Part shown: one piece after another, positions 12 through 63,700 of the stretch
Position numbering within the stretch: position 1 is the stretch's first letter
Layout of the letters: each line of letters starts with the position of its first letter
Origin: Deuterostichococcus epilithicus
Taxonomy: Eukaryota; Chlorophyta; Trebouxiophyceae; Prasiolales; Stichococcaceae
Direction: 5' to 3'
Length of the DNA: 64,000 nucleotides
Assembly (NCBI GenBank): GCA_033439295.1
Contig: JAVTLE010000023.1
Coordinates: 4,500,530 to 4,564,529 of the forward strand
Made by a program: the position numbers and the translations under genes
The notes under the pieces: generated by a model
Told to the model about the DNA's origin: nothing
Databases searched by the model: none
The model's input: the letters and a program-made list of their open reading frames with translations, nothing else

Positions 12-3000
12 GCCAGCATTGCCCAGGGTACCCACCCCATAAACATGGACCCGACGCTGCATGCTGAAGCGCGTGCGCTGCTGGACTCGCTGATCGGGCC
101 GCCGCGGCTGCTGGCAGCCGCGCCGCTGCGGGGGCTGCTCATCGTGGCGTGCGGCCCGGGGAAAGGCTGCATGTCCCCCTCCGTCGTTGCCGTGCGGCCG
201 TCCACCGGTGACAGAACGCCCAACAATGCGGACTGCTGAGGTGTCTGGGGGCGCATTTTGCCTAGGTGCCTGGGAGCCCTGGAGGCGCTGGTGACAGGGG
301 CTGTCGCATCCATGTGGCTGCCCCTCTCGTCCAGCACTGCCAAGGCTCCCAGATAATCCTGATGCCATGTTGGGGTGTCGCATGTCACAAGCCACATGCA
401 GCAATACAAGAACAGGCAGCGGGCCGTTGCGTGTGCACAGCCGTGTGGCTGTTAGGGTTTAGGGTATCGCATCGCATTGGCCGGCCGGTTCAGGTTTCCG
501 GTTGCGAGCAGCGCTGTTGTGAGGGTGGCAAGGCGGCCAGCAGCTGTGCCGCCGCAAACCATGCTCATGCTCGAGCTCCTGCGCCCGCCACCGAAGGAAC
601 CTCGCTACACCTTTCTGAACTCTGTTTCACGCTCAAAATGGTGAAAGCGAACGTGTGTGCTGGCGACAGGCGAGGTGGTCGCACAGTGCGAGCTGGGCCC
701 GACGGAGGCCGTCACCGCGCTGGCCGCGTGGCCGACGCTCACGGCGCCCTTTGCTCGGCCGGGTACACATGTCTGTGACGCGACTGCCGCCGTCTTGGCT
801 CATGCTGCACGCTCCATGCAGGCGTGCGGCGCACACCTGGCCTCTGCTTGGTGCTGCACCTTTTCCCAAGGCGGTGGTTTGATCCGCTGGCGTCTTCTCC
901 CCCTCTAGCAGGCCACACCGCAGCCGCAGCGGAGCCGCCGCGCCGGCGCCGCGGCGACGGCGCCGCCACGATGGTCCTGGACCTGGACCCTGCGGCNTTT
1001 CCGCCGCCGCCGCCGCCGCCTCGGAGGGGCGTGCCGCTGCCCCCAGGCGAACCGTTTCTGGATGCGGGCGAGGCCGGCGGCGAGGAGGCGTTCGTGGCGG
1101 NGGGCACGTCGTACAAGGCGCCGCCGCCGGCGCTGTGGCACGCTGCGCCGGCGCCGCGGGGGCGGCTGCTGCTCCTGCGGCTGGAGGCGCCAGAGGACGA
1201 GGCCCAGACGGAGGGTGCGCACCTGCAGAACCTCGTGTTAGCACTCACATGGTTGCAGTGCACACTCCATGCAAGATGCATGTGGATGCACAGGGTCAGG
1301 CACGGCTGCCGCGACCCGCTGGGCGCACAACCTGCAACCCCGCGCTGCGTCAGCCGTTGTTCTGCCCAGACGGGCGGCTGGCTGAACTATTTCTTTGGAG
1401 GCAGGATGGCGCCTGGCGGCACATGCTGCGGTGCTGCAGGTGGATAGACGATCTGAACCCCAGGTTTCACGAGGCTTTCGTAACATCAAGTCGCCAGACT
1501 GGAGTACGGCGCATTTGATGCAGGCTGGCGTCAGAGGGACAGGCACTCAGCCGGGCCACTTGGGGATGACAGGATCACATATCACAACGTCAAAGACGAC
1601 GATGCGAACAACTTCAGAAGTTGCCCTGCTGGCGTCTGGTGCTTGGGATTGGGTTTCAGGGCTCCCCAGTCCTGCAGCAGGGGCAGCCAACGACGGGACA
1701 CCAACAGCCCTCTGTGTGTCAACGAACCTCCTGGCACACTTCCTGCTGCAAGCTGACAAACACTGGCGGCGCAGGTGTTCGCCAGCTTGCAGCAGGAAGT
1801 GTGCCAGGACCTTCTCGACACATAGTCTGCTGTTGATATCACGTCATTGGCATTGGCCGAGGACTTGCTGGAGCTAGCAGAACCGGTCAAGTAGCTGGCG
1901 GCCACCACCCTGCCGGGGCTGCTGCTGGAGAGCGGCGCAACAACTGATGCAGACACCTTCGCAAATGCCGCTCTCTATACACCGTTCCACTCTCCCCGCA
2001 GGCTGGCGCCTCGTGGTGGAGGAGGTTCTGAAGCTGAGTGAGCCGGTCACGGCGCTGGTGCCCGCCGGGCTGCCGGGCCTGCTGCTGGTGGGCGCCGCCG
2101 GGGGCTGGCAGCCTACCGCCTGGTGCGGCGGCGGGTGCCGGCCGGCGGCGGCGGCGCGGCGGCGGCGGCAGCGGCAGCAGCGTCGTGGGCGCCGCGGTGC
2201 GCGGCGCCGGCGCTGGCAGCCTCCCCGACGAGGACGAAGTGTCCAGCCACCCCGCAGGTGAGGGCTTCTGTTCCAAGTCGCTGCCTTGCTCGCTACATAG
2301 TGGTGGCACGACCGACGGGACCGAGGTGTCCAGCCACCCCGCAGGTGAGTTGTGCGGGCTGCAGCTTCTGTGTGCCATGGGCGGAAGGAAGGGCACATCT
2401 GGTGGGCCAGTCGACGTTCATCTGCAGGGGTGTCTGACAGCCGGCAGAGTGCTGGCGGTGCGTTTGACAGTCACCTCGTGCGCCTACTCCCAAGGCTGCT
2501 GCCTTTGCCTGCTGCACATTGGTGACAATGGGTGCCATTGGGTGGCACAACTCAGCCTGTCGCGCCCCCAAGCCAGACTGGGCGAAGTTGTGCAGGTTGG
2601 TGAATTTAGCAGCGAAACTACACTTGCCGGCGTGGTGGCAGCTGGCGCAAGCTGGAATGCCTGTAGATGCACAACTCGAAGCGCGGCCGTCATACTTTCT
2701 TCCAGCCATGTCGGCGGGTGACCAGTGACGTCTGTTGCACAAGCTTGCTGACACGAGAAGGCCTGGAGGCGACTCTCACCACTCGAGGTTGTCCCTGAGC
2801 ACCTGCTGCGATCTCGCGCAGCAGCTGCGCGCCGACAGCTTTTGAGTGGTGAAAATCACGCGGCTCCCATGGCGAGGCCGAACACATGGTTTTGTGAGGC
2901 CAGCCAATAAAGGCTCGGAGCTTGGTTCTTATAGCATCGTGTAGAGACTGCCCTACGGCGGCATCCTATGCTAACTTGCACGACTCATGATCCTCTGTGC

Positions 3001-7071: not shown

Positions 7072-7144
7072 TGGAGACGCGGGGAATCGAACCCCGGACC
7101 TCCCGCATGCGAAGCGGGCGCTCTACCAACTGAGCCACATCCCC
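7072..7144 (-). tRNA. tRNA-Ala(CGC)
   Basis: Reading the minus strand gives a complete 73-nt cloverleaf. The acceptor stem GGGGATG pairs with CGTCTCC, the discriminator is A73, and the D-loop contains AGTTGGTAGA. The anticodon stem CCCGC/GCGGG encloses the loop TTCGCAT, giving anticodon CGC. The T-arm CCGGG/CCCCG carries the GTTCGAT loop. The acceptor stem holds the G3-U70 wobble pair that is the main identity element for alanyl-tRNA synthetase. There is no intron and no encoded CCA, as expected for a eukaryotic nuclear gene. Confidence 0.97.
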
Positions 7145-7680: not shown

Positions 7681-7699
7681 AGCAGCGACGGCCCCAGTA

Positions 7700-9928: not shown

Positions 9929-12900
9929 TCAGATCCTGCCACTGGCAGCGATGGCGGCCGGTCGGAACGCCTGCACGCCCACGTGGTCCGGCTTGGCGAA
10001 GATGAGCTCGCCCCTTGCCTCTGACGCCTCCTGTGATCGAAAGGATCGAGGCAGCCAATTGAGCAGAGCAGCAGTGCCGGCCGGGCGACACAGAGGGTGC
10101 GGTGCACAGCAAGTCCGATGCCGGGCGCATGGCGGAACGAGACCCATGCTGGAGCTGGGCCCTGGTGGATGCTCCAGCTCGCCGGCTCAGCAAGGCGCGG
10201 CTGTGGCAGTAGCCCGAGCAAAGTAAGGTGGTTAGAAATGGAAAATGACGTCGTCAAGATCTGAGCTGCACCTTGGCGTCGCCGTACATGGAGTGGCGCT
10301 CGCCCTTGGCGGCCATTGTGTCAGCGTAGATGCTGGCCTTGCCCTGGGGTGGCAGATGGAAATGTCAACCCTTCAGGCCAGGCAGGCTTCACGGCAGCAG
10401 CGAGTTAGCAGCCCAGCAAGGAGCCGCTATGTCACAAAACTCGGTGACACACTGCACAGCAGCGCTTCGGCTCGCACCCGCTCTCGATGATGTTAACACG
10501 GCGCCGGGCGGTCCGATCCGGTGCTGTGACCCACATGCGCTGGCACAGCAGAGAGAGCAGCAGAGCGAGCAGCAGGGAGAGCAGCACAGAGAGCCGGTGC
10601 GCGCCTGCGACGCGACGTCGATGATGTCGAACAGCTCCCGCTCGCCGCGCGTTGACTGCCAGGCGTGCTCCACGACGGCCTCCACCACCGCACGGGCCCC
10701 CTGGGGCACGGCGCCGCGGGTGACTTCGTTCAGCCGCCGCTGCTTGAAGATGGGCACCTGTCCACAGCGGTCGCCGGAGGAGTTCAGGGCTGTGCTTTGT
10801 CGCGCGGTCCCGTCGACGTAGGAGGGAAGACCACCGGCGGGCCCACGGCACGCGCTGTGCAGTCCTTGGCGCCACACGGTAGTGGGAACCAAGTGCAGGT
10901 GGGTGCGCAGGCCTGAGCCGCCAGCCGCTTGAGCCTGAGATATAAGCAGGTAGGGCGCCACTCGTTGCTTGCGACGCCCCTACTGCTCGCACCCTGCGAC
11001 ACGACACTGGCAGCCCGGGTTGCTGCCCACCGGCTGGGGACAATGCCGGTACTCCAGGCACCTGGTCAGACCCTCCTCCGAATGTCCTGCCCGAGCCTGA
11101 GCCCCACAGAGTGCAAGCGTCCTGCCTTCACTTACCAGCGGCACAATGCGGGTCACGTCCTGCGAGGACAGCTGGTCCCAGGTGTCGTAGTCCAGTTCGA
11201 ATTGGCGCGGCGTGCCGTTCTGCACAGCATCAATCGTGTCCCTGCGCAGCCCACCAGATTTGCTTTCAGCGTGGCACATATAACCTTGTTGATCGCACGT
11301 CAGCCTGCAGTGCGCATGTCAGCGTGCGATAGTCCAGATGCCGAAAAGGCAAGGGGTGCAGACGAGGAAACGAATCCCTCGCTCTGAGGCAGTTTGATGT
11401 GGCATCAGCAGCGCAGATGATGCCAGGCACTGCAAGCGAGAAAGTCCCACCACACGCCGTCGGAGCCAAGCAGGAACATGTCTGCGGCACGGCATGCGAC
11501 CACGCCATATTGGAGGTTGGTGTGCCGCCGCAGGTTGCCCTTGTCGTCCGCCGCGTCCTTGCCAACGGCACCTGCGATGTGTGCAAAGCGAGGGTTTAGG
11601 GTTCAGCGTCTTGTGCGCCACGCCATGATAGCCACACCATGGAGGGCATGGCCGTGCTTGATGACGGACTGACGGCCCCAATCTTCGATAATTCGAGCTG
11701 GGTGCTGCCAAAGGCTGTTGGTTTCGTTTGCTGCGTCCCTGTTGCGTCCTTGCCGATGGCGTCTGCAGACCCGGAACAGGTTGCATATCTGCTGGTGTTG
11801 CGCCTGCCGGGCTGGCATGCCGCCGCTGGGAGCTCTGCTCACACGCTGTATGGCCATCTGCCAAATCAATACAATTATCCTGTGTGCAGCCTCGTGCTCG
11901 GCGTCACTGGCATTGCTGGCCCGGCATGCACAGGCAGCAGGTTTCAGGCTGGGCTGTGCCATACCAAAGCTGCCACCCGCAGTTTGCGGGCTTGCAAACC
12001 CCTGCCTGATCAACAGGCGCGACAGCCTGGGTGTCCCAAGGGGCGCATGCATGCTGACAGCCCCCTTCCGACCTTTTCTCCCCCCAGCCCCTGGCGCCGG
12101 GTGTGACCCAACCCTGCTTCCTGATGCACCATCCGCCGCCTTCAAGATGACGAATCACACGACCGCAATTAGGGTCCATCGCCGCATCACCCCTGCACAC
12201 AGGTGCGGTGTGGTTTTATTGAGAGTCGAGGCCTCACCCGGAACCTGGGAGCTGTTGACGCGCAGCAGGTGCGCCGCAGGGCCGACCGGCTCGACCAGGT
12301 ACCGCCACTCCCCCCGCTGGCTGTCGTACCAGAATGCCTGTGGCCGGCAGCAGCAGCACAGTTCCCACCACTAGTCAAAGCACTGCTCAGATTGAAACGC
12401 CTGAAGTCCTTTTCCGGTAGCTTAGGCCATCTCTCAAGCGATTTGAATGCGAAGCCCCATTGCTATTCTGCTGGCTGTCGTTATAAAACGCCTGCACATT
12501 GGCGGCAGCAGCAGCATCGCTGAGCACTGCTCAGGTTCATGGATCGGGTTTCCCAACAGTTCCTGCACTGGCGGTCATGCCAAAGTGCCTGTTGCCAGCA
12601 GGGTTTGCCACGCTCGGCACTGCTCAGCAGGTTGGTCAGTCAAAACACTTCCCCTGGCTGGCTTTGTTGTACAATGATTGTATGCGGATGAAGGTACCAG
12701 CGAAGTGTCAGCACTGTTCCTGTGCAGGGGCACGTCCAGATCCATGACTCCAAGGCAGTGGTCAGGCATCGCAGCGACTGTCATTCAGGCTGCAGCACGA
12801 AAAGGGCCCCCGATGCCGCTGGCAAAATGCGCCGCATCGGCTGCTCGAGTGGCACGCTTTGCGCGCTGCCCACATGCAGAGTGCCAGCCACAGCTACCCA

Positions 12901-15068: not shown

Positions 15069-17902
15069 ATGGCGCGGGGCAACAAGTTCAAGCCGCGAGT
15101 TCCAGAGGCACCAGCACCAAAGCCACCGCCATCGAAGCCTTCCGGCGAGGCAACAGCGGCAGCCAAAGCAGCGTTTGCAGCCCAGAAGCCCTTCTCAGCA
15201 GCGGCAAACCCCGTGGAGAAGGTCGGCCGGAAGCGGAAACGAGCTGTTGCGCCCGGAGCGGCGGTCGCAAGCCAGGGACCTGCAGCGGCGACCAACGGCG
15301 TGCAAGCAGGCTCGCGGTCAGCAGGCCAGTCGCTTTCAGAGCGCAAGCAGAAGGGAAAGCATGCCGATCCGGCAGCAGCAGCTAAACAGTCGTCAAGCAA
15401 CATTGCGCTGCAGCCGGCGGCCGGGCAGCGGCGGCAGGGGCAGCCGAACGGCAAGCGGCGGTGGGGCAAGGGCAACAAGCCTGCCAAGCCGCCGGTGGAC
15501 ATACCCGCGGACCGCGCGGACTCTGCAGCGGTGCTGGCCAGTGGCGGCGGTATGCGGCCCAGCGCAGAGCAACTGCAGACTCTGGCGCGCTTCCCGGCCG
15601 CAGCAGGTGCGTTTGCATGTTGCCGAAGACCTCACACGGCTTGCGAACGAACCCGCTCTTGCGCGCATCACACCCTGGAGGCTTTGCTACGTGCGGTGTA
15701 CTGGCTGCCAGGCTGGCAACTCCGATGTGGCCTGGGCCTGCTGCTGATTCCCAAGTCATCCTGGAAAGCAGGCGTGGAGGGCGCCGGAGCAGCCGGCTCC
15801 AACTGGGCGGCGCTGAAGGCGCAGCTGGCGTCGCAGCCGCAGTTTCGGCGGCGGAAGTGGCCTCCGCTGCAGACGCAGGCAGACGCCGAGGCGGCAGAGG
15901 CGCCAGAGGAGGCGCGGGCCCTGCCGCCGCAGGCGCTCAGTGCTGACACCAGTCTGACGCCGGTGAGCGACCGTTAAAATCTGGACGGAGCCCATGCTTG
16001 CGGCCAAGGTCTGTGCAGGTGCATGCCACCAAGTGGCTTCGGTGCGGCCGCCGCCCAACCTGGGGAGCAATGCCGCAGCACAGCAGCAACAGCGAGTGGA
16101 CCTGACGGAGGCTGCTGCTCTCATCATCCGGTCGATGTCTGGTGTATGAGGCGCTGCCTAGGCAGCCATGGCCACGCTGCCGCGGTTGCCTGAGGCTGGC
16201 TTGAGCATCTGCTGCCCCGGTGGCAGCGCCCATCCGTGCGGTGGCCACGCCATGGGCCTCAGCTGGACGAGCTTTGAAGGAGCCCGCAGCCGGCCACTGC
16301 AGGCATGCTGCTCCGCAGGTGGTGGCCGTGGACTGTGAGATGGTGGGCGTTGGGCCTGAGGGTGCGCGGAGCGAGCTTGCCAGGTGCGCTGCTCTCGGAC
16401 AAGCCCGCCGCATGGCGGCCCTGGGAACTTTCCCAGCCAGAGGCCCATGCGTGTGCTTCGTCCCCGGCATGAGGTTGACTGAATGCATACAGGCAGATGC
16501 GTCTGCCTGCAGGAGGCGATGCAACAGCACAGCCTGGAATGTTGCGCCTAGGTCTGCTTCGCGGTCCCACCACGGCGCACACTTGCCGCATCAGCTTGTT
16601 CCCACATGTTGCAGGGTGTGCATAGTGAACAACCACGGCGCGGTGCTGCTGGACAAGTTTGCTCGGCCCAAGGAGCGCGTAACCGACTTTCGGACCCGCT
16701 TCTCTGGGATCCGCCCCGCCGACATAAAGCATGCGCCGGCCTTTGAGGAGGTGCAGGCGGAGGCGGCGGCGATCCTGAAGGACCGCACCATCGTGGGCCA
16801 CTCCATCACCAACGACCTGAAGGTTTGTTTGTTTGTTGGTTTGTTCGCCTGCTGGCTCGCTCGCTCGCTTGCCTGTGTTCCTCGCTGTAAGTCTTGCACC
16901 AGCCATGCTGCATGCCACTCGGGATGTGTGGCTGAGCTGGCTCTCATCGACGAGGCCAGCTGCCGGCTGCTTGGCTGGCCAGAGTCCTTTGCTGCGAGCG
17001 AGCTCCTGCCGCACCTTGGAACCCGAATGCCAGCGTCCAGGCTCCGGCGAACAGGTCGCACGGGGCCAATGCTTTGCACGTACAACCGGACTGCTGCAAA
17101 CACTGACCTCTGACCCTGCTGCGAGCGCAGGCGCTGCTGCTGGGGCACCCCGGCAAGCGCATCCGCGACACGGCCCGCTTCCCGCCGCTCATGCTGCCGC
17201 GACGGCCGGGCGGCAAGTCGCGGCCGCGTGCGCTGCGGGCGCTAGCTGCGGAGCAGCTGGGGCTGACCATCCAGGAGGGAGAGCACTCGCCGGTGGACGA
17301 CGCCCGGGCGGCGCTCTACCTGTACCATAAGCACCGCAAGGTGGGTAAAGATGCGAGTAGTCGTGTTGGGGAGTCGTCTTGCAGGCCCCTCGAACAACGG
17401 TCGCCGGTGGACGATTGGCAGCCAGCGCTCTGCTCCAGCACTGAGCACCGCAACGTGTGTCAGTGGCGGCTTGGGACAGCTTCTGAGATTTGTCTTGGAA
17501 AGAAGGACTTCGAGCACGGCCGCTATCAGGTCGGCGCCCGTCCGCCTCACCTGTCGAGACGCTTTGCGCCTGCAGCCGAACGCTGCACAGGAACCTACAA
17601 GCAGGCAATGGCAGGCAGCTGCACCTCATCTTGCCTCCTACAGCCGCCCATCACGGCAGCCTCTGGGGGCGGCGACGTGTCCCATGCCCATGCAGCAGTC
17701 TCTCTCCAGGCTGGGTGGGGGAATCTTCCGCACAAGTTTTGAATCTGAAACCCTGCTGCGATGTGAGCAGGTGTGGGAGGCGGAGCTGAAGCAGCACGGC
17801 AGCGTGAAGCGGCTAAAGTCACTCATGGCCGGCAAGGGGCGCGGCGCTGCCGCCCGCAGTCTGGCGGATCTTGCAAAGTCAGATGACATGGTGGATCTCT
17901 GA
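15069..17902 (+). CDS. REXO4: REXO4-like DEDDh 3'-5' exonuclease
   Basis: Seven exons with fully consistent phases: 15069-15606, 15772-15951, 16019-16143, 16319-16383, 16615-16822, 17131-17340 and 17771-17902 (TGA), giving 485 aa. The Lys/Ala/Gln-rich N-terminal half (GRKRKR, GKRRWGKG) fits nucleolar localisation. The exonuclease domain shows Exo I AVDCEMVGVG (Asp and Glu ligands), Exo II HSITNDLK (Asp) and Exo III HSPVDDARA (His and Asp), the DEDDh set of the REXO4/ISG20 group. REXO4 acts on RNA in pre-rRNA processing. All catalytic residues are intact. The second intron starts within the codon for Ser after ADT. The last intron (17341-17770) contains a decayed copy of the end of exon 6. The gene shares a short divergent promoter with the PP2C-type gene. 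Confidence 0.92.
17281..17460 (+). repeat. exon-end echo in the last REXO4 intron, offset 114
   Basis: Exon bases 17281-17346, including the donor, align without gaps to 17395-17460 in the intron. TCGCCGGTGGACGA is exact at 17287 and 17401, and GAGCACCGCAA at 17451 matches AAGCACCGCAA in the exon. The offset is exactly 114 bp. The copy has lost the codons for the Exo III Asp region and cannot encode an active site. Confidence 0.88.
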
Positions 17903-29600: not shown

Positions 29601-31565
29601 CGGTGCTGTCAGGACGCTAGGCCCACCTCGAGGGAAGTGGTTCCCAGCAAGTCCGGACACAAACAGAAGCTCTCCGCGTGTAGTTTTATATTGGACCGCT
29701 CTGACGTGCTGCTGCACCCTGGGTTGCGGTGTGAAGCCTCCGCGCGCCTTTCCCCGACAGGCCTGGTGGTCATCACCAGCACGCCGCCGATGATGTGGCT
29801 GGTGAACGACCCGCTGAAGGAGGCTTCGGCGGTGGCGCTCGCCTCCATAGCGGTCTTCATGGGTGGCTTCTCTGCATCAGCCTGCGGCCCCAGCATCAGG
29901 TGAGCGCTTGTCCTTTCGGCCCCACTGAATACTTCAGTCTGCGATTGTGTTCCGATCCGATCCGGGAGTTCTGGTGCATTGGCGACTTCTCAGCCTACAC
30001 GTTTGCGGCCCCAGCACCAGGCGGCGTTTTCAGATGCTGCTGAAATTCTGGCCTCCAGAAATCTCATGGAACCACATCTTGTCGCTGGCGCTGTGGTTGG
30101 TGCTGGACTGGTTGTGAACCCTGGCCCTCTCTTGCGCACAATGACAGCGCCGTGATGCTGAAACCAACGAGCCGGAGACGCGAAGCGCGGCGCTGGCGCT
30201 GCATGTGGTGCCAGTCCTCCTGTTTCTCGCAGTCCAACCAGCTTGTTTTCTGTGCTACAGGGCAATGATCATGAACGTCAACGAGCCGGAGACGCGCGGC
30301 GTCGCGCTGGCGCTGCATGTGGTGCTGGACGACTTGGGCAAGGGCGTGGGCCCGGCGCTGGTGGCGGTGCTCATCACCGCGCTCGGCCGCCAGCTGGCCT
30401 TCAGCCTCTCCATCGCCGGCTGGATCCCCTGCGGCATGCTCATCCGTGCGTCCCCGCTTCCCAGCCGTGTCAAACTCCTCCGGGTCCCCTGCCCGCTGCT
30501 TGCTGTGCGCTGCTTGTGAGGGAGCCGCACCGTCTGCAGCAGACGCAAATGCTGCAGGCTGCTGCTGCTGCTGCTGCGTCGCGGACGGCACAGGGCGGCT
30601 GGTGCTGGCAGGCATCTCCTCTGGGCGTCCAATCTCAGCGCATTCCCTAGCCGCACTGCGTCTGGGGCACGCTGGCAAGTTTGGAGCCACTACGAAGCTG
30701 TCCTGGCTGCATGCCGCAAAACAACGACGTCATCTCACGGACCTGCACGGTTCAACACAGCCTAATTATATGTTCCCAACCGGCTGCTGCTCTCACACCC
30801 TGAAGCTGCCTTTCATCCGCGCCCTCACAGTGACCGCCTGCAGCCACTCAGACTGGCGGACCAGAGAGGACATGCGCACCCTAGTAAACCCTTTGACCCA
30901 TCAACCTCTCGCAGTGGGCGCCTACTTCACGCTGGAAGACGACGAGGACAACATGCAGAAGCGGCTGGTGCACAACCGGGAGGTGCGCAGCGCCGCCGCC
31001 AGCGCCGCCGCCAGCGTGGCCACCGGTGCGCCTCTCGGATGTAGGGTTTAGGGTGTCGTCTCACTGCCGGGGGCTGCTTCCCCCGGCGGCGTCTCTTGTG
31101 CAAGATGGCAGCACACGCCGTGCACCGGCTGCCACAGGACGACGGCTTGGCCGCACAGCACTGTGATACGCGCCCATTTCTGACGCACACACAGGCAGGG
31201 GAGGATGTGGCAGGGCAAACACGAGCAGCCAGATGAGAAATCTCGTTCGCAGAACTGAGGCGGCCCCGTGACGTGCCCGCAATGCAGAGCAGCAGCAGGT
31301 CAGCGACATCGAAGAGGAGGAGCTCAGCAGCCCGGAGGGCAGCCGGCGGTCAGCGCCGACAGCGGCGGCCAGGCTGTCAACGAGACGGGGTAGCCGCGGG
31401 GACGCCACGGAGCAGCAGCAGCTGCTGCACGCGGTGGAGGACAGCAGCGCCAACGGCGGCGAGCAGGATGTGGGCGGGAAGAGCAGTGGAGGAGCCGCGC
31501 ATCGGAGCAATGGCGGCGGCGGCGGCAACGGCAGTGCGCAGGGAGGAGGTCTGGAGGAGGTGTAG
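26658..31565 (+). CDS. spinster-like MFS transporter
   Basis: Eleven exons with fully consistent phases: 26658-26907, 27154-27353, 27734-27866, 28180-28398, 28657-28880, 29124-29219, 29446-29551, 29761-29899, 30261-30445, 30915-30982 and 31296-31565 (TAG), giving 629 aa. A hydrophilic N-terminus of about 110 residues precedes helix 1 (YYAVGLFCLVAALLYADQN). Motif A is GYMSHGYNR after helix 2. Helix 4 carries RLLTGISLGGIFPL, then LGDLF, as in spinster homologues (lysosomal or plasma-membrane sphingolipid/lysolipid carriers). VNEPETRGVALAL, before helix 11, is also typical. The C-terminal tail is acidic and Ser/Gly/Gln-rich (DIEEEELSSPEGS) and probably cytosolic. The substrate and membrane are inference only. 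Two introns carry echoes of neighbouring exons. Confidence 0.88.
29862..30024 (+). repeat. exon-end echo, offset about 121
   Basis: The end of exon 29761-29899 with its donor (GCGGCCCCAGCATCAGGTG at 29884) recurs as GCGGCCCCAGCACCAGGCG at 30005 in the following intron. Upstream similarity (TGGCTTCTCTGCATCAGCC versus TGGCGACTTCTCAGCCTAC) is looser. The donor GT has mutated to GC in the copy. Confidence 0.75.
30085..30340 (+). repeat. exon-start echoes, offsets 114 and about 222
   Basis: The start of exon 30261-30445 (ACGAGCCGGAGACGCG at 30281) occurs again at 30167, exactly 114 bp upstream in the intron, with about 65 aligned bases and roughly 85 percent identity including GCGCTGGCGCTGCATGTGGT. 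A third, more decayed copy (CTGGCGCTGTGGTTGGTGCT at 30085) lies about another 108 bp upstream. Confidence 0.9.
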
Positions 31566-32360: not shown

Positions 32361-35251
32361 ATGGGCAAGAAGAGCAAGTCGGCATCGGCAAATGGCATGG
32401 CCGGGTCGGGCTTGGGGACGGCACCGCGCAGGAGCAGCAGCAACGGCAGCAGTGCAGCGAGCAAGAAGCCTGCCGGTCCAGAGATTATCACCCTGCCCAA
32501 CGGCCAGCAGGTGCTGCGTGTCATCTTTCTGGCACATATAGAAGTTCTACAACAGTTGGTGACCAGCTATGCCTCCAGATCCAACGTTCCGGAGAAGCAG
32601 CAGATCGCTCTGCCACGACGTATGCCTGAGCAGCTTTGAAGCGTGTATTCGCACGAAATTGCTGCTAGCGGCTGTGAACTGCCGAAGTGTTTCCTCGAAC
32701 CCAGCACGTCGAGCGTTCATGCAGCATGAAGTGTTCGCTACGCCGTGACGCTATTGCTCCAGTGCTATTGGAATGGAGCTGCATCGATTCGACAGGCCTT
32801 GCCTAAATACCATACGCTGCAGCGTGCCCTTCGCGGAGACCTCCGGCTCCGTGCAGCTGTACAGCTCACCTTTCCCACCTGTGTCACATACCTCGCCATG
32901 CTGACACCGCGGGTGCCATGGCCCTGCAGATCCCGGTGGCGCCGCCACCCGGCGTCGACCCGGCCATGTATGTACAGGCGCTGCAATACCTGAAGCAGAA
33001 CCCGGAGGCGGCGCTGCAGGCGCAGGAGCAGGCACGGCGGATGGGCAATCCGCTCATGGCGCAGGCGGCTTCCGCAAAGCTCGCTGACCCCGAGTATAAG
33101 TGCGTCAGCTGTGCGCTGCCAGGATGCATTACAATCCAGTGGTGTGTCAATCACAACGATGCCCTGGACCTGAACTTCCGGCTGAACCGCGTGATTCATC
33201 AGAAGTGCATCGGAAGTGCTGCGCTCGTGTGCCAGCACCCCAAAAAACATGCTGTCAACTAGACAACAAGATGCAGAAGATTGATCCCGCAGCCAGGCGC
33301 TGCCGTCCCCGTCTCGTACTACTGATTCTTCCGCCAAGAGCAGAATGAACGATATGCAGGCAGGCCCTGACACAGCTTTCGCCTTCAAACCCGACGTGTG
33401 CCCGCCATTGCCCGCCACCTGACGTCCCGTTCCTGATCCGTCACCCGAACAGGAAGAAGATGGAGGAGCTGCGGGCGGACCCGGACCTGAAACCGGTGTT
33501 TGATGACATCGCGGCGACGGGCGCGGCGGGCATGGAGAAGTACTGGAATGACGGCGACCTCATGACGCGCATCAGCCGCAAGATGGCGGCGCTTGGCGTG
33601 TCGCCGGAGCCGCAGCCGCAGCCGCCCGGCAAGTCCATCCCGGTGAGCCGCCTTCGCGGCGCTGAGGATGCTTTGTTAGCTGCCGGGGACTTTGAGCGGC
33701 TGCTTGCAGGAGTGTAGAAGCCTCCTGCACGTCGCCGATGCCAGGCACGGCGCGAGGGCTGGCATCGCATCCCCAGCTTGCTGCTCCCTCCGTCTCCCTG
33801 CAGTGACCCAGCCCGTGACCCTGTCCTAATCCTCAGCACCAGCGGATCTCAGAGTGTCGCTTTTCATCAACTCGCACCCAGCACTCGCACCCGTAACTCG
33901 TGGCCAGGCGCGGCCGAGCAACCTCCATGACGCGGCCAAGGCGGGCGACGCCGCCGCGGTGGGCGCGCTGCTGCAGGAGGGCTGCGCCGTCGACGGCCGC
34001 GACGGCCGGGGCATCACGCCGCTCGGCGTTGCCGTGGGCTTCAACCGGCTGCCGGTGGTGCGGGTGCTGCTGGCGGCCGGCGCCGACGTGGGGCTGACTG
34101 ACGCCAAGGGGAACACGGCGCTGCACTACGCCGCCGGTGAGGTCTCGAGGGGCTTTCGAGGCCTCAGTCTCCTCTAGCATGCATCTTGCGGCTTTGCTGC
34201 CACTTTTGCTGATGTGGGTCTGATGGATGCCACGGGCAACATAACACCAACTGTAGGTGAGCGACCCGGCCTATCAGGCGGCTGAACTTTCTGTTCTTCT
34301 CCGGGTCACCTGGGATGTCCTGAGGGCTTGATAAGCCAGGCAAGGCAGCAGTGAAGCCTAAGCGCCGAGCAAGAATGCATGCCTGGCTGCCCACCAGTCG
34401 CAGTTTCTCGGCTGGTGTGTGCCTCATTCGTCTGCATCCCCTCTGGCAGCAATCTGCTCAAAAGCACTGAAAACAAGGGCGACCCTTTGGCTCGAGTGCG
34501 CAGCAACCTTTCAGTGTGCCTGACGTCCTCACGCTGAACTACCAGCCGGACGCAGGAAAGGTCTGCTTCGTGCTGGTGCAGAACCAGAACAAAGGGAGCC
34601 TTTTGGGGCCCGAGGTTGGCTGTTAGTGTGACATTCCTTCATGCAAGGTTTCAGCACCACACCTGAGCTGATGCCGGTGGCATTGGCTTCTGAATCGTAC
34701 ATCTGATGCCCCGGCAGGGTATGGACGGAAGGAGGCGGCCGCGCTGCTTCTGGATGCAGGCGCCGTCGCTGACGCCGCCAACAGCGATGGGCAGACGCCG
34801 GTGCAGGTGGGCAGCCGCCGCCTTTGGGCTGCACCCTGACCTTTCGCAACCGTCGCTAGGCTGGCTAGTGACTGATGCAAGCGGTGACACACCGCCGCCA
34901 GCGCGGGCTGACCTTCCCCGGAGTCGCGCCTGCGCCCAGCATGCATGTTATCTGCTCCCCGCAGCTGCCTGCTCGTGTGCACGGTCGAAGTAGGCTGGCC
35001 ACTCCTGTCGCACGACAGATGCAACAAAAGGATGCAGAGCGCCTGATGGGCGCTGCTGGGGGCCTGATGCGCATAAAGGGAAAGACACAAAGCGCCTGAT
35101 GGGCGCCGCTTTTCCTGAGCGCTAGGTGGCGGAAACCAACCGGGAGACACACATGGTGGAGTATCTCACCAACAGGGCGGCCGGCGGCGGCAAAGACGGC
35201 GCCGGGCTCAAAACCTCAGACGAGATCCCCGACTCGGAAAAGTATCTATGA
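32361..35251 (+). CDS. AKR2: AKR2-like ankyrin-repeat chaperone
   Basis: Six exons with fully consistent phases: 32361-32510, 32930-33099, 33453-33642, 33908-34136, 34718-34806 and 35126-35251 (TGA), giving 317 aa (plant AKR2A is about 340). The Ser/Ala/Lys-rich N-terminus is followed by STI1-like segments (NPEAALQAQEQARRMGNP; MEELRADPDLKPVFDDI; AAGMEKYWNDGDL), then ankyrin repeats (HDAAKAGDAAAVGALLQEG; GNTALHYAAGGYGRKEAA; LLLDAGAVADAANSDGQTP; ETNRETHMVEYL). AKR2 is a cytosolic factor that binds outer-membrane proteins of plastids and peroxisomes and delivers them to the organelle. The spacing of STI1 and ankyrin parts matches that family, which supports a plant-lineage origin for the window. 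The intron after 34136 contains an echo of the preceding exon end. Confidence 0.93.
34066..34262 (+). repeat. exon-end echo in the AKR2 intron, offset about 120
   Basis: Exon bases 34066-34144 (ending GCCG|GTGAGG) are echoed at about 34184-34262, ending GTAGGTGAGC. GACGTGGGGCTGACTGACGC at 34085 corresponds to GATGTGGGTCTGATGGATGC at 34211. The copy keeps a GTGAG donor. Confidence 0.8.
35038..35110 (+). repeat. local duplication before the last AKR2 exon
   Basis: AGCGCCTGATGGGCGCTGCT at 35038 and AGCGCCTGATGGGCGCCGCT at 35091 differ by one base with a 53-bp period. A shorter GGCCTGATGCGC lies between them. The second copy ends 15 bp before the splice acceptor of exon 35126. Confidence 0.9.
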
Positions 35252-36321: not shown

Positions 36322-39300
36322 TCACCGCCTGCGCTTCTTGCCGCTCTTGGGTTTTCCTGCGCGGAGGACAACAATCGCTGTGATACTTGTCGCAATTTCG
36401 AGAGCCCGCTGATTCGACAACGCTCAGCGTCGTTTGACTGCTGTGCAACCTCAGTAGGCAAGCTTTCCTTTGGGCCTGCTGCCGCAGCCACGCGACATTG
36501 CCGCAATCCTGCTGTTTGCATTCCGCCCCCCTTTCACGGTGCGGCAGCGTGACAGCGCCGCACGGCAGGCAACCAGAGCCCAACATGAGTTCTCACTGTT
36601 CAACAAGAAGCACCCCGGCCCAGCTCGCAGAATGGTGTGGCACCCCCCAACACGCCGCAGCGCCACACCAAAAGTGCCCCTTGCACCCCGAGATGCAGCC
36701 GTCCCCAAGAAAACCGCTCACCTATGGACCGCGCCTTTGACGGCAGCGACGGTGGCGGCACGCCGACGCCCTGCGGCGGCGGGTGGACCGCCTCCCACGC
36801 GTCCAGCGCGGCAGTCTCCGCCAGATCGGCATAGGCCGACCACTCCGCGGCGTTGAGCTCGAAACCGATCCACTTGACCAAATACTGCGCCGAAGGACGA
36901 GAGACAGGATGAGGCTCACAATTTGCAGATCAGCGACCTTCTGCAAACGCTGGCTTCTCACAGGTCGGCATAGGGCCGAACACCCCCCAGGGGTTCAGTT
37001 TGTAACCATCCACTTGGCCAGGTGCTGCAGGACGGACGCAGTAACAGCCCCAGATGCGGTTCAGGCCGCAGAGCCAGCAGCGTGACGTCCCATGGCCCAG
37101 CCATCTGTTGGAGGAGCATGCTCCAGCTCATGCAGCGGCACGCAGCTATGGCTGTATGCATTGCAGAGACATGCTGCTGGTTGATATTCCATACTGGCGT
37201 GCAACACACGACCAGAACTTTGCAAACGGAACCAATGCGGCATTGGGAAACATGCGGCATGAGGAAAGGTGCGGTGACGGGTTCCAGACGCCCCTACAAT
37301 TGGGTGCTTCTGTCGAAAGGGAAACCGGTCTTTGGTCAAAGAGTTGAATCGTAGAAAGATTGGGTAGCTCACCTCGCGGGGAGCGTCCGCGGGGCGCTGC
37401 GAGACGATGTAGTCCGGCAGGAATTCTTCCTCAGGCCCAAAGTCCGTCTCGCGGTACTCCTGCAGGAGCCTGCGGAGTTTTTAAAATATCTGCATTTTAT
37501 TCAAGGGTCATGTCGATCTCACTTCGCAGCAGATCGAGCCGATGGTCGATCCAGTGTGAATATTCAGTGTGAACCCTGTTCCTGCGCAAGACACTCTCCA
37601 TGGCCCTCCCGAAGCGGCCTGTGGCCGCCCACGACTCGCATGTGGACCGGAGTTCACCGTGCGTCACAAATGCTGGCCTGAACTGCGTTTCTGAGGAGAT
37701 GCCGCATCAATCTGCGCCGCACGTCCCAAGGCATCTGGAACAAGATGAGGCCGGGTCCATGCAGTGGCTGAGCCTGAAACCCTAAATTTCTCGCTCATGC
37801 GGCGGCCTGTGCTGCAGGGCAGGGCACCGCGCAGTGCCGCAGGGCTGCGGCAGCGGCATCGGCACATTCTGTGGCGTTCGTGGCAAGCAGAGCACGCCCG
37901 GCTCAGCTCGCTGGCAGGCGGGCGGGCTGGAGCGGCCAGCACGACACGTGCAAGCGGCACCCGGGCATTGTAACAAGAGAGGCCGGGCGGCTGCCGGATG
38001 CACAGCGCAGGGGGTTCAGTTCACTTGTCTCCGTCGGCCAGCGACCGCCTGAAAGGCACCCGGTCCGGGAAGGACCCCGGCGGCAGCACCACATCCTGCT
38101 CCTCGCCCGCCGCCGCCTGCGCGCCGGGAAACTGCCAGTCAGGAAACCACGCTGTGGGAAGGAGGGTGAAAGGACGAGGATGAGGTTGAGGACGAGGCCG
38201 GGAATGAGATCGGGATGACGATGAGTTCAGGGGATCTCGGATGCCTGCTGCCTGAGTGCATGCCGAGGAGGTGCGTGCTGGACACGAAGGGTCGCCGGCG
38301 CGAGGCGGGGATCGGCGCCCGCCTTCGCAGCAAGCTGGCAAGTGTGGGGCACATAGCGGCCGGGAGCGTCAGGGGGGGCCAATCACGAGCGCCCTGACCT
38401 CGTCTGCGTCGGCCGTCTCGCCAGGGGATGCGGAGTGCAGGGGCGAGCCGCTGCCGGCGCCGCCGCTCCTACTAGGCGTCGCCTGCGGCAGGTGGCCGTT
38501 GGGGATGAAGTCGTTCATGTCCTCATCCGCATCAGCCTCCTGCCCGGAGATGAGGCCCGGAGTTTGTGCATGCTCATCTCGATTCAATTCTGTCACATTA
38601 TCGGCCTGCCGCCGCTGCATTGAAGTTGCATCTGTCTTCAGCGCTACTGGCCTCCTCCCCAGAGATGCGGCTGGTCTTCAGCAGCCGACAGGTTTCAGCT
38701 GGAAGTGTCTGCAGCTGCCAGCCGGCATGTTGGCACCGCCGCACGATGTGGCGACAGCCGGCCAGCGGCTCCACAACAGCGGCCCATTGCTGCCGGCTAG
38801 TCTCAGCGTGCAAGACCGTGTCTGGGGTTCTGCGCTGTGCTGTGCTTGCCTTGGCACACCGCTTCGCAGCTTTCTAACCACGTCTCGCAAGGTCCTTGCC
38901 ACCACAGAAACCGATTTTCCAGCCGGAGAATGGAGAGCAGGGTAGCAGGGTGTCTGGGTGGCATAACTCTGACGGCGCACCTCCTGCGCGTCGCCAAACT
39001 CGTCCGAGCCACCCGACACCGCATCGTCTTCCGCAGCCTTCGCCAGCTGCTGTGCGGGTGACGAGCGAGAGGGTGAGACAGGGCTCATTCGAGCTCACTT
39101 GACAAACAAACAGCGGCAGCGTCACTGAGCCTGCCTGCTATGCTTTGCCAGGGCTCGGCGCTGATGTCATGTGCGGCGCAACATTGTGCAGGGAGTCGAC
39201 AGGTGAGCCCAAGACCTGGTGCAACAGCTCCGCAGCAGCGCGACTGGCGCGGCCCCTGACACTTGTGACAACAACTCAGAGAGCAAATGCAATTTCAGAC

Positions 39301-54740: not shown

Positions 54741-57700
54741 CTACAGCCGGATGACGAGATCCTTCACAGCGCGTGACAGCAGCCGCAGGCTGTCGACATC
54801 ATCCGAAAAGACGCCGTCGTTGGCGGCCAACCGAATGAGCGCGTCCAGCGGCGGGCTCAGCAGCCGACGCAGCAGGTCCAGCTCCTGCGCCCACAATCGC
54901 TGCCTTGAGAACGTCTCTCGTTCTCCTTTCTTGTGGCGAGCAGACAACAACAGACGATCCCGAGTCTGGTGGGGAGCTTCGCGCATCTCTGGAGGATTCC
55001 AGCCCAGCGGCGGGCTCACCAGTTGCCGCAGCAGGTCTCCAGGATCAGGAAACGTGCCGTCTATCACGTGGTGAACCACATGCGTTCAGGAGCCGGCCCT
55101 GCTCCCCACCATGGAAGCCATGCGCATGGTGACATTCGTATTGCCGGGTGCATGACCAGTCTGCTTCATCGGCCGCGGCCACTGCTGACATCCATGCCTA
55201 TGCACCTGAATCAGAGGGCCAAGCTCATGAAGTGGGCCATGTATGCGCACCCGCTCGTCGCCGAGCTTGGTGGCGGGTTGATTGCGCGACAGCACCGCCA
55301 GCACCGCCGCCAGCAGGTTCTCGATCAGCAGCAGGCCCTCGATCACCTGCGGAACAGGACTCTTGCCGTGTCAACCAAGTGCAGCAGGACGCTGGCATCG
55401 CGGCACACATGCTTCACCCTCGAAACACACCCTGCCAACGGTCCCTTCATTGTATGTGATGCGGATGACCATCAGCCGGATGGATTTGAGGCAGATGACG
55501 CGGGCTCCATGCAGGGCTAAAACTTGGCGCAGGCTGGCTGACGACCCTCGGGGCCCATATGCAGCCCCAAATCCTGAACCTTATACGCAGCTCAGGCAGC
55601 GCACACACCTCGGCCTCCGTCAGCGACGCCGCTGCCAGGATGTCGGCGCCCTCGCAGCTGCTGCCGCCGCACGCAGGCGCCTCTGCAAACAGCTGCTGCC
55701 GCGTGTCCAGCGCTGCGTGGAGATCCTCCGTGGCCTGCAATTTCCAACAGTCAGACTTCAGGGTGTCAAAGGCGAAGAGGGGGTGCCTCGTGCTCTGGAG
55801 CTCGAAGGCTGCTCGTCTGCGATTCAAACGCTCGCAGGGTCGAAGGTGGAAGGCCAGCTGCTGTGAACTGCGGCGCCGCATGCTTTGGCAGCTCTGCGGC
55901 AAATTGCTGTTCGGCAAATTGACAATAAGCACTCTTCCGGCTGAGATCGCACTGGTGCCTCGGCGGGAAGCAAGACGAGTGCTGCGCACCTGGCTGAGCG
56001 ACTCGCGCAGCAGCGGCAGCGTCGGCGGCCGGTGGCTGGGCGGCGCATCCACAGCGTGCGGCGCCGCCCCATAATTCAGCGGCGCCTCACCTTCCGCTGC
56101 GAGCTGCCGCAGCGTCTGCGCAAGCACCACCCGCAGCCGCCGCACCCTGCACGAGAGCACAGGCGAAGCACGGTGACACAATTGTTGAATGTGGTCAGCA
56201 GCCAGCATGGCCTGCCGGCAGGCAGCGCACGCCGACGCCATCTCAGTGACAGCGGCAATAGCGGCAGCAGCAGCAGTGGCGATGGCGGCCTTCCAAGCAT
56301 ACATTATATTACAGAAGTCCGCCCCCAGCTCAGCAACCTCGAGGGCGTCTGCACACACGCAGGCAAAGCGTGTATACAGGAGCAGAGGCTGCTGCCACAC
56401 CCGCGGCGAATGGCGCGAGCCTCGCGGCGCAGCGCGGCGCCCGCCGCCGCCGGATGCATCGCCGCCGCCCCGCTGTCGCTGTCGCCATAGGGCACCACCG
56501 CCCCCTGCTGCGGCTGCGGCCTCGCCGCCGGCGCCGCCCGCCGCAGCGCCGCGGCCACCACAGGGTCCTGGACCTGAGAGACCCCGCGAGCAGCATGGGT
56601 GTCCGGAGAGCAGCCATCAACGACTCCTCATGCTGGCCACCAGGGCAGGCTTTGGAAGGCAGGCTGCTGGGTCTGGCTTCAGGCAGGCAGAGCCAAGGAC
56701 TCTGCATCCAGTTGGTTGCTTGACAACACGCCATTGCCCATGCCGAGCGTAGAGCAACGATGCCCACCCAGGCCACATCGCAGGGCCAGCCAGCAGCAGC
56801 CGCACGAATCGCATATCGAGCCTCACCCGGGCATTGAGGCGGCCGTACAGCCAGGCCAGACGGAAGAGGCCCGGCTGCAGGCGGCCCCAGGCGGGCGAGG
56901 ACGCCAAGCCTGGCAGCAGGCGCGACGCCAGCGCCGCCGCCAGCCGTGCCTCCTCCAGTGCCACCGCCACGCAGCCCTGCATCCTGTGGGCAGCAGGAGC
57001 AGTGTCCGGTCGCGTGCTTGTTCCTTAGAGTCTCTGTGAACACAGATACCCCGAAACCCTAAGCCCACAGCATCCCGCAGCGGCTGAGGAGCGGGGCAGG
57101 GTGCTTCCCTGGTGGGTGCCGACGGCGGCCGAGCAATCAGGTCAAGGTCGCTTCAGGCCGCTGCAGGACTGGCGGGCTTGAAAGCGGGGGCATCGGGCCG
57201 GCCACCCTGCATGAACAAAAATTCGGCAGCAGCAGCATGTGCGAGGGCGTCGAGGGCGGACAGCACCTGCGGCCGTCGGCGGCATCTTCCAGCATGCGGC
57301 CCAGCGAGGTGGCATGACGCTCCACGAAGCTGACCGCCTGCCCCTGCACCGCGCCAGAGTCCGGCAGCTGCGAGGCTATGGACAGCACCACCTGCAGCGC
57401 CGGCGCCACGACCTGCGCGAGACGAAGGGAGCCACCTGAAGTGCCGCCTCACCGGCAAAGGCGGGTGGGACAGAGGGGGCACGCAGGTCCGGTGGTGAGC
57501 TTCACAGATGCCTGTAGTGTGCGCTCGCAGCTGATGGGCAGCCACGGCAGACAGCAGGATTGCACAGCAGCCAACCTCGCTGGCACACATGGGGCGTGTA
57601 GACTGCCACCCGTCGTGTCTGTCCCGAGCATGCGAGCGTGTCAGACATGGACCAAAAGCAGCAGGCTGTCCCCGATTCATCTCAGCCATACAGCAGTAGA

Positions 57701-60700: not shown

Positions 60701-63700
60701 CCGGCGGCGGGAGGCTCCTCCAGGACGTCACGCAGCAGGCCGAACCTGGCGCAGGCGCACAGCAGCGCTCAAGGTGCATGGCGCCAGGAACATATATGTT
60801 GTGCACGTGTGCTCTTCCTCATGACCTGCTGCATCCAGGGGGCGACCCAACAGGGTCGAGCAGGCATGGGCCAGCGCTTTTGGCAGGCCACAGGCTGATG
60901 TGGGAGGTTTTTGGGCGGCGAATTTGTGATTGGGTGGCGGGTATGGAATGTCGAGGGCTGCGGAGTACACCTCTTGGAGAAGGCGACCTCGATCACGGCC
61001 TGCCAGGCGCGGCTCAGCGCCGCCAGCGCGCCGCCGGACAGCGCAAATGCATTGAAGCGCTGCGCAAAGCCGAGCGCCGCGCGGCAGGCCTCCTGCATGA
61101 CGGGAGCCGCCGCCGCCGCAGATGCGCCGCTTGCCGCCTGGGCGTTGTACCTGCAATGAAGGCGGCATCGCCGGGGTCAGAAACACGCTTGTAGGGAGCA
61201 TTCCAGAAGGCATCATGCACCATGGTGCCCTCATCATGCAAGACACTCTGGCAAGGACCAGGAGGAGAAAGGAAGATGGATGGGACGACCCCTCCAGGCG
61301 AGGCTGCATGACAACATGTTGTCTGCTTTGCGAACCGAGTCAAGTTCCGATGTTTCACTCCGTCTGCGCCCGGCATCGTACCAGACTCAGCAACCCCACC
61401 TGCGCCCGGCATCGTACCAGACTCAGCAACCCCACCTGCTGCGCAGCGCGTCCGCGAGGGCGGGGATGTCGAAGAGCGACTCGCCGGCGTCGCCGGTTGT
61501 GCGCACGCTGGCGTTCCCGTGGCCGCCGCCGCCGGCTGCCAGGAGGTCCATGATACCCATCGCCTGCAACCGAGAGTCGTGCCTTTCGTTCGCAACCCTA
61601 CTGGGTTTGAAGGGACAGCAGCGCCAAGGACGGCTCGGCGGCTTTCGTGCTTGGCCCTGGTGCAGGACCAGCCTCGCTGAAGGCGTGCCGGCGGGCAGCG
61701 CATGTCGTGCGAGAATGCACGGCCAGTCGCTGTCGACTCCACAAGTGGCCTGATGCACACGCTGCATATAATCATTGCGCCAAGGAGGCCAGGCCTGCAG
61801 ACTGTCTTGGGAGAGAAGTGACGGGCACCAGCGGTAATCAAAGTGTACCACATCAAATACTCCTTACGAGTACTGGACCACCTCGCACCTGCTGCGCGCG
61901 CCGCACGTCGGCCGCCGCGGCCGTCGCCATTTCAGGCGTGTCGCCCGCCGCCGCCAGCCCCCGCAGCAGCACCAGCGCCGCATTGCGCGGTGGCTCGGCG
62001 CCTGCGTCTGAGCCGCCATCCTCTGCAGCGTGCCAGACAGGGGTGGGCAGCTGGTTTGGCACATGCCCTGCAGATTCACCGGGTGCTGATGCCAGCATCT
62101 CACCCGGCGTTTGGGATGCTGTCAGGCAGCGGCGGCGCCTCTGGTGAAGATCCTGGCTCAGGGCTGAGCTCTAGGACAGCGTCAACCAGGTGCCGACTGC
62201 AGGAGCAGCACCATGGTGGCAGCAGCCCAGCAAGCCTGCGCTGAGCCAGCATGCAGGCATGATGTGCGGCGCTGACATTTGCACCAGCAGAGGTCAGTGC
62301 GGCATTGCAGCACGGCAGGTTTCCTCCCCGGCTGACAGCCGGCCCGCGGGAGCAGCGGGCAAGACCCTAAATCCTGAAAACCCTACCCGGCGCCTCGTCT
62401 GGCGGCTGCGCAAACAGCGCCGCCAGGAGCTCCCGGGTCGCGGTCCGGTCCAGCGGAACTGCCGGCTCCGCCGTATGCAGCTGCAGCGCCAGCAGCTGCA
62501 GCACCGTGGCCCGCTGCTGCAGCGATGCGGTCCGGGCAGCGTCCTGCATGAAAGCAGAAGCTAAGGGGTGAGCAGCGCCAGCCGCCTTCACGAAGGGAAC
62601 ACCTGGCGAGGTGGTTTGATTGCTGCAGAAAGGAACACTTCTATTGGCACCCAATGCACAGCAAGGCAGTCGAGCAGGTCGGGGACCCCCCGGCAAGCAG
62701 CCACACACTGTGGGTTTGCTACACTCGCATGGCATCGACCAAAGGGCACGCCGGCGGCTCCCGGCTCCGCGTCCGACCAGGTCGGATCAGCAGGGAACCA
62801 GCAATCGGCAACGCGCCTGGTCCGGCAGTGGGGCGCACACGACAGCGGGTATGAGCGGCGCGAGACCGCCAAACTGGCGGCGCAGCAGCGCCAGCACCGG
62901 TTCCCCAGTCTCGGGCGCCGCCGCCAGCGCCAGCAGCAGCCGCAGCGCCNCCCCGTACAGGCCCGGCTGGCGCGCCGCAAACGCCTCCGGCGACGCGGCG
63001 GCGCGCAGCACCACCGTAAGGCAGGAGTACTGCTGCCGCGGGTCCAGCACCGACTGCGCCAGACCTGCACGGCGGTCATGCACATGTGGCATGAGAAATG
63101 GATGTCGGTCGACCGGGTTGCAGCAGCTGCGCAGCGCCGGGTGGAAGGGCGCGGGTGGTCGTGGTGGCAGCCGGCGGCATCCTGCCGAGGGTCCAGCGGC
63201 GACGGTGGCTGGCATGCAGCAGGGCGTCACGGGTAGCTCTCAGAGGTTTTGCATGAGCAAACCTCCACCTTCCACAGCAGCTGCCACCAATATGCACATC
63301 GTCGAGCACCCATCGCGACGCGGACGGCCCGGTGCAGCGGCACAGGTCAGCATATGGGGACCGTTGCTGGTGCAGTGTGCAAGAGACCTCCCTGGCAAGC
63401 CGCCTGGTGCTCCATGGCGGCTTGGAGCATCGGCCTCACAGCCACAGCAGCATGCGGCGACTGAAGCCAGGGAATCCAGGTATATGCAGCTCGCCTTGTG
63501 CGGCGCGCAAACCCCTGATGGCTGCCTGCACCAGCCTGAAGAATGAGGAAACCCTGAAGGATGGCCAACAGCTCTGTTCCTGACGCCGTTCACCGCACCA
63601 GCAGGGCCGTCCACGACGTCAAAGCCCAGCAGCAGGTGCGCCAGCCCGGGGCCCGCCCCCGCGCCGCGGGCCACAGAGTCCAGCAGCAGCCGCAGCACCA

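Follow-up and report, generated by a model that had tools for sequence, protein, structure and literature searches.

Dozens of short, decaying copies of exon edges sit in adjacent introns in the genome of the green alga Deuterostichococcus epilithicus. These copies, referred to here as echoes, were reported in the initial annotation of a 64-kb stretch of this genome (the window; C19:4500530-4564529), and analysis of the window together with 200 kb of the same genome confirms exon-edge duplication at short range as a genuine and recurrent feature that exceeds chance. The duplications are local, direct, mostly spaced and recurrent, the intronic copy decays freely, and the distance between source and copy (the offset) shows a preference for 110-127 bp. 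The explanation that we tentatively favour is a process of templated insertion, acting when breaks are repaired locally or during replication, whose products survive in introns.

Echoes of exon edges in introns

The additional 200 kb comprise 15 stretches of 10 kb from 15 contigs, and then five more; the resulting 264 kb represent 0.6% of the 46.8-Mb, 21-contig genome, and sampled loci are labelled with L-numbers (L004, L009, L010, L011, L014, L015 etc.). Local direct repeats were collected from masked sequence at offsets of 30-400 and scores of >=14, thresholds that were set by the analyst. The 264 kb yielded 77 such repeats, compared with 10, 4, 6, 6, 8, 6 and 6 in seven bands at other offsets, and the first 214 kb alone yielded 69, compared with 2-6 in the control bands. 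Local inverted repeats, the count of which was compared with the distant-offset direct bands, numbered 7 (6 non-redundant). These gene-free counts are independent of gene models.

Exons and introns were predicted by a self-trained gene finder, without RNA, that used the splice signals (C/A)AG/GTGNG for donors and YGCAG/G for acceptors (the last slash marks the junction); it places 643 introns, with a median length of 221 nt, in the 264 kb. When introns were compared with an adjacent exon, 26 of 792 pairs scored >=14, as opposed to 1/792 with the exon reverse-complemented, 0/792 with random exons and 3/1453 with exons further along the same gene. Exon-intron echoes touch 29 of the 643 predicted introns. 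In the window alone there are 22 exon-involving pairs, compared with 4, 4, 6 and 5 in the four equally wide bands of control offsets (offsets 60-299, score >=14, mismatch -1; at least one predicted exon per pair, exon-exon pairs included), and their identity ranges from 69% to 96% (72% for the pair 1854/2014). The claim that exon-edge echoes occur in introns on both strands is upheld by these counts and by repeats outside the window. There the signal recurs in 15 further 10-kb stretches on 15 contigs, and nine polymerase-gene loci that were not used for training (about 3.1 kb each, several overlapping) contain 10 local repeats, compared with none at control offsets, which have fewer positions in loci of this size.

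The loci are 57-66% GC and rich in GCTGC and CAG-type words, in keeping with chance similarity or GC-rich low complexity. That explanation is ruled out, and carries a negligible probability, by the use of masked sequence and by five kinds of control (distant offsets, reverse complement, random exons, non-adjacent exons and inverted repeats), all of which give far lower counts. A mobile element or introner was also considered and rejected. Genome searches with 13 spacers, the stretches between source and copy, matched each spacer to itself only, which argues against a mobile element; searches with 7 blocks found the 7 source places and 5 echoes and, among the best candidates scored, no other match. 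Copies match the neighbouring exon edge only.

Anatomy and decay of the copies

With one event counted per locus and offset, the 77 repeats reduce to 70 non-redundant events. Of these, 37 pair an exon with an intron and 17 link intron to intron; another 11 involve two predicted exons, 2 lie in a single exon and 3 are intergenic. The two-exon class includes echoes miscalled as exons, such as that of L004 at offset 127, where the match of the PDB homologue 3nyb, a poly(A) polymerase, covers the first copy and goes no further. Homologues of a spinster-like transporter align straight across an exon junction, leaving no room for the echo, although the matches are weak (E 4e-6 to 1e-5). Two protein homologues thus leave space for one copy only.

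Block ends were located in 33 exon-intron events (offsets 75-275) out of the 37. When the alignments were extended with gaps, 25 blocks proved to end between -10 and +20 nt from the splice junction, where 11.3 would be expected if blocks could slide; 5 others end deeper in the exon, and 3 extend further into the intron. Fourteen of these echoes are on the donor side and 19 on the acceptor side, so that both types noted in the initial annotation are present. Echoes sit tens of nucleotides from the same intron border, and the intron usually continues past the echo.

Mismatches between source and copy at codon positions 1, 2 and 3 number 59/401, 51/395 and 80/402 (14.7, 12.9 and 19.9%), a pattern expected when the intronic copy is free and the source exon constrained; the intronic copies are under no coding constraint. 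In-frame exon repeats, or tandem exon duplication, were rejected as an explanation on this ground and because the offsets are not multiples of 3 (13, 9 and 15 exon-intron offsets in the three classes modulo 3).

Judged by eye, the splice dinucleotide is kept in about 17-18 of some 28 junction-spanning copies. This is near the expectation from overall identity, again judged by eye, and systematic destruction of decoy splice sites was dropped as a hypothesis. In intron interiors over the 264 kb, GTGAG is depleted (91 occurrences, compared with 156 expected from dinucleotides), whereas TGCAG is the fifth most common 5-mer (539, compared with 409 expected). The contrast suggests selection against decoy donors only. 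It also bears on the possibility that splice motifs serve as microhomology: with GTGAG depleted and TGCAG common, any such help would be limited to acceptors. As for the spare splice sites that the initial annotation expected, candidate sites are present in some copies, intact examples being those at 2345 in the window and at 9924 in L004.

A preferred offset

Placement of exon-intron echoes is not uniform along the intron. Offsets of 80-180 account for 27 of the 37 exon-intron events, compared with 10.7 expected from uniform placement in the same intron; there are none at 30-80 (4.2 expected) or 180-220 (3.3 expected), 6 at 220-275 (4.5 expected) and 4 at 275-400 (7.9 expected). Finer tests used 58 offsets, 48 of them from events of the exon-intron and exon-exon classes and 10 from the nine polymerase-gene loci; these 10 were not sorted by gene model, and 4 of them lie at 110-125. 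A scan with an 18-bp frame peaks at 110-127, with 19 of the 58 offsets, and smooth null distributions of bandwidth 20, 30 and 40 reach that peak in 9, 2 and 0 of 1000 trials. A preferred offset of about 114 had been named beforehand, and it holds up outside the window, where 13 of the 35 offsets within 80-180 fall at 110-125, compared with 5.5 expected under a uniform null (P 0.002).

The preference might be taken further. It is conceivable, though we consider it decidedly unlikely, that exon edges are copied genome-wide from the splice junction inwards to a position about 115 bp away in the adjacent intron, with the distance set by a physical ruler. Such a ruler could be a resected single strand, a nucleosome or a structure coupled to splicing, and introns would then grow by accretion of exon echoes.

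Spaced blocks and tandem duplications

The initial annotation read the echoes as the result of simple small tandem duplications spanning exon-intron junctions. A tandem unit as long as the offset would leave the intronic halves of the two copies similar, and the spacer would show it. Of 24 pairs tested one by one, 22 have a spacer that matches neither flank at p<0.02. The two exceptions are L004 at offset 139, where the match to the spacer is the exon resuming after a gap, and L015 at offset 120, where 31/31 nt are alike inside an exon between unrelated flanks and the spacer scores (p 0; z 4.0). The L015 alignment pairs the head of an exon with sequence further along that exon, and it is therefore read as a within-exon repeat.

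Tandem duplication was also simulated: real junction regions were duplicated, one exon copy was constrained while the rest drifted, and the same detection was applied. Spacer similarity (z>=3) appeared in 67, 73, 83 and 94% of the simulated pairs that were detected, by identity class. The comparison took 34 of the 40 events at offsets 80-180 (exon-intron or exon-exon class only), and the corresponding observed values are 0/4, 0/6, 2/13 and 5/11, or 7/34 in total, with 27 below z 3; some of the five in the top class are due to a block that runs on (L004 offset 150, window offset 114) or to L015. In single-age runs with other ages or heavier indels, the prediction falls only where blocks scoring >=24 drop below their observed share of 44%, and none of the single ages or indel rates tried reproduces the spacer result together with the block strength. 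When the flanks of all 26 matches were tested, weak similarity persisted to either side of the blocks (z 2.8 and 2.4), and donor echoes had none towards the intron (z 0.2).

Most pairs are thus spaced blocks. A minority are genuine tandem duplications: whole-unit cases occur at L011 (405-639) and L009 (5026-5353), and from intron to intron at L010 (4009-4190). These support the simple tandem reading where they occur; as a general account it is improbable, given that so few spacers, and few individual pairs, have the predicted tandem form. Local duplication does lengthen introns, as had been proposed. Intron creation, the other half of that proposal, fares poorly: a predicted intron runs exactly from copy to copy in only 1 of 26 pairs (score >=14), that of L004 at offset 139. 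The predicted mini-exon of this pair is unmatched by the PDB homologue, which is weak evidence, as the preceding exon is also unmatched.

Origin of the echoes

The favoured explanation, to which we give a little less than an even chance, is that echoes are templated insertions made in local break repair or replication and surviving in introns. A DNA end that has broken or stalled within an intron would be extended on nearby DNA and then rejoined; some 30-120 nt of flanking sequence would be copied and inserted, usually some 30-130 nt from the source, and each event would add an exon-edge copy to the intron. Inserts in introns would survive, inserts in exons would mostly be purged, and copies taken from exons would be traceable for the longest time, since coding constraint preserves one of the two partners. 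Candidate routes are polymerase-theta-type end joining, with trans-templated insertion, and synthesis-dependent strand annealing (SDSA). Which enzyme acts, which way the copying runs and how survival filters the inserts are points that we infer here, and same-strand copies tens of nucleotides from the source would fit the geometry of either route.

A POLQ-type locus is present on contig C4, with POLQ_helical matches (48.5 and 29.1 bits, above cut-off) and DNA_pol_A exons on one strand about 5-9 kb apart, an arrangement that may represent a single gene. HELQ shares the POLQ_helical domain. Only one POLQ_helical locus was found, so no separate HELQ was seen, which is a weak negative. Besides the POLQ-like locus of C4, the polymerase loci L023-L031 include another two with DNA_pol_A, on contigs C7 and C15; local repeats in these polymerase loci, 112-122 bp apart, look like exon echoes. 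Repair that leaves templated insertions of flanking DNA is attributed to POLQ in ku80 mutants of Chlamydomonas (PMC8495919), and plants reportedly have no HELQ, their templated insertions being described as patchwork (PMC8654963).

It is important to emphasize that several observations weigh against templated insertion or are not fully explained by it. Templated insertions are usually 3-30 bp (PMC8495919), and most blocks here are longer. Anchoring of blocks at the junction is unpredicted by random copying, and the ruler of about 115 bp and the size of the exon bias are likewise not fully explained. Intron-intron events make up 5 of the 40 at offsets 80-180, compared with about 49% expected by placement, and differential decay, as simulated, explains only part of this shortage; in the youngest class of pairs, with identity of >=0.88 across >=25 nt, the bias is weak, with 7 exon and 2 intron loci. 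Snap-back repair would make inverted copies, and the 7 local ones in the 264 kb are no excess. At the several two-copy sites, which bear out the initial annotation's mention of two or more successive copies, the second step is near the first offset (1x and 2x) and suits tandem growth. The two exceptional spacers and the seven of 34 with similarity, described above, belong on the same side.

Several of these points are better served by a tandem duplication of about 115 bp across the junction, after which the intronic halves ceased to resemble each other. Either both intronic copies would drift while gene conversion from the constrained exon keeps the exon copy similar, or the intronic half of the decoy would be deleted by selection against the spare splice site. 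Such a history explains junction anchoring better than templated insertion does, and it accounts for the exon bias, the direct orientation, the 1x/2x offset steps and the few full tandem cases. It needs an extra process, however, and it fits poorly with the sharp edges of the youngest pairs. The L004 pair at offset 127 has 39/41 nt alike and its donor intact, yet its spacer gives z -0.7; the window pair at offset 87 gives z 0.2; and the identical stretch of L015 at offset 120 lies within an exon, between unrelated flanks. We regard this history as possible but unlikely.

Two further explanations have less to recommend them. If a double-strand break was staggered and its long overhang was filled in on both sides of inserted filler DNA, as proposed for Daphnia introns, the outcome would be a block, an unrelated spacer and a second block, and would presumably be harmless only if the block spanned the junction. 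This model is nevertheless quite improbable, as a filler source was found for 0 of 13 spacers, the acceptor-side echoes (19/33) would have displaced the branch point, and the blocks exceed the repeats described in Daphnia, of 4-12 bp, several-fold in length (PMC4202315). Slightly more improbable still is selection of the intronic copies as alternative exon ends or splicing decoys. Junction anchoring is in its favour, as is the full donor motif kept by some copies despite the depletion of GTGAG in intron interiors; lack of coding constraint, offsets out of frame and mutation of the splice dinucleotide in a number of copies speak against it.

Echoes and other repeats in the window

The source and echo positions in the window are collected in Table 1. 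A Pfam search names 5 of 10 predicted stretches there (RNase_T exonuclease, MFS transporter, WD40, CAP C-terminus and ankyrin). Pairs could be placed at most offsets of the initial annotation, namely at 87, 154/251 (= 154+97), 114, 114, 115, 121 and 149, while no exon-intron pair was found at 169. The offset given as about 120 is perhaps the 126 pair 34082/34208. The 47-nt block of the acceptor echo in the MFS transporter gene was found at two places only in the genome, its source and the echo.

Table 1. Predicted exon edges of the window and their intronic echoes
Feature	Position	Strand	Offset	Identity	Remarks
Source: last 33 nt of predicted exon 2181-2257 + donor GTGAG	2225..2262	+			
Donor echo in next intron	2312..2349	+	87	89% over 38 nt	CCGCAG/GTGAG intact; pair 2235/2322
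Source: head of predicted exon 2002-2122	2014..2098	+			
Acceptor-side echo in preceding intron	1854..1938	+	160	72% over 85 nt	beyond the initial list
Source: 5' edge of predicted exon 12238-12337 + acceptor	12316..12350	-			
Acceptor echo 1	12470..12494	-	154	80%	pair 12316/12470
Acceptor echo 2	12568..12601	-	251 (154+97)	79%	pair 12317/12568
Source: end of predicted exon 17131-17340 + donor, RNase_T exonuclease gene	17287..17346	+			
Donor echo	17401..17460	+	114	70% over 60 nt	pair 17287/17401
Source: end of predicted exon 29761-29899 + donor, MFS (spinster-like) transporter gene	29858..29909	+			
Donor echo	29977..30029	+	about 120 (121 at 29883/30004)	76% gapped	donor GT to GC
Source: acceptor + head of predicted exon 30261-30445, same MFS transporter gene	30257..30325	+			
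Acceptor echo	30144..30211	+	114	91% over 47 nt	same intron as the 29977 donor echo; pair 30165/30279
Second copy from exon 30261-30445	30083..30108	+	222	85% over 26 nt	beyond the initial list; pair 30083/30305
Source: near end of predicted exon 33908-34136, ankyrin-repeat gene	34082..34115	+			
Donor-side echo	34208..34241	+	126	76%	
Source: 5' edge of predicted exon 38399-38539	38506..38556	-			
Acceptor echo	38621..38671	-	115	69%	
Source: head of predicted exon 54768-54884	54845..54878	-			
Acceptor-side echo	55004..55037	-	159	88% over 34 nt	beyond the initial list
Source: head of predicted exon 62817-63064 + acceptor	63033..63069	-			
Acceptor echo	63182..63218	-	149	76%	acceptor CAG to CAT, ungapped

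An offset of 139, also reported, does exist at 6854/6993, but this pair is intron-to-intron, in an array beside a tRNA gene, and includes no exon edge. In that region (6786-7144), near-tandem copies 76, 139 and 153 bp apart and up to 93% alike precede, in window order, a tRNA-Ala (CGC) gene at 7071-7144 (- strand). The copies repeat the 3' acceptor-arm sequence of the tRNA, an echo of a constrained non-coding element.

Other repeats were seen in passing. A perfect 36-bp tandem duplication at 61364-61439, in a predicted intron, is apparently very recent. About 17 copies of the hexamer ACCAGC at 8745-8847 are read as a His-Gln run in a predicted gene. A hairpin-like inverted repeat lies in an intron at 1686-1851, with strong inner arms (1729-1763/1775-1809) and weaker outer arms (1686-1720/1817-1851). 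Outside the window, L014 carries one spaced pair (offset 187) twice, at 1956-2171 and 9750-9965, in direct orientation and 7.8 kb apart; the two are perhaps the ends of a larger repeat.

Significance and relation to known systems

The origin of intron sequence is largely unknown because most origins decay past recognition. In the present sample, a neighbouring exon edge can still be traced as the partial source of no fewer than 29 of the 643 predicted introns, and the many events, the preferred distance and the presence of both old and young copies make intron lengthening directly testable in this genome. The echoes may link intron growth to error-prone break repair, and spare splice sites made in this way would be raw material for alternative splicing. 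No account of this echo pattern was found in the open-access literature, subscription papers not being covered, and a four-term search of text from the Coccomyxa genome paper (PMC3446292) shows no such description.

Introners, as described in PMC9860276, are intron-building elements found in many genes of some eukaryotes. Unlike them, the echoes form no multi-copy family, and the spacers and blocks searched match their own locus only. Intron gain through tandem genomic duplication of AGGT-containing sequence (reviewed in PMC3443670) is similar in that a direct local duplication involves splice-like sequence and leaves spare splice sites; the copies described here differ in being mostly spaced, in that the block is an existing exon edge, and in that introns are lengthened. 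The neointrons of Daphnia (PMC4202315) and intron border repeats (PMC11782384) also feature direct repeats that link exon ends and introns, with breaks proposed as their cause, but as given in those sources the repeats are 4-12 and 4-30 bp and paired between both intron borders, whereas the blocks here are long and lie beside one border.

POLQ templated insertions (PMC8495919, PMC8654963) resemble the echoes, if these arose as favoured here, in being local copies of DNA flanking a break, and a POLQ-type locus is present in this genome. The blocks here are mostly 30-120 nt as opposed to the usual 3-30 bp, and an offset preference near 115 and splice-junction anchoring are absent from the POLQ signature as set out in the cited portions of those two papers. 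Repair-mediated duplications in humans capture nearby DNA, with a proximal median of 147 bp and sources up to 5 kb away (PMC2671141). Like the echoes, they are short, spaced and local, they are attributed to SDSA, and their sources include exons and splice sites; the algal copies differ in being tens of bp long, about 115 bp from their source, direct only and focused on exon edges.

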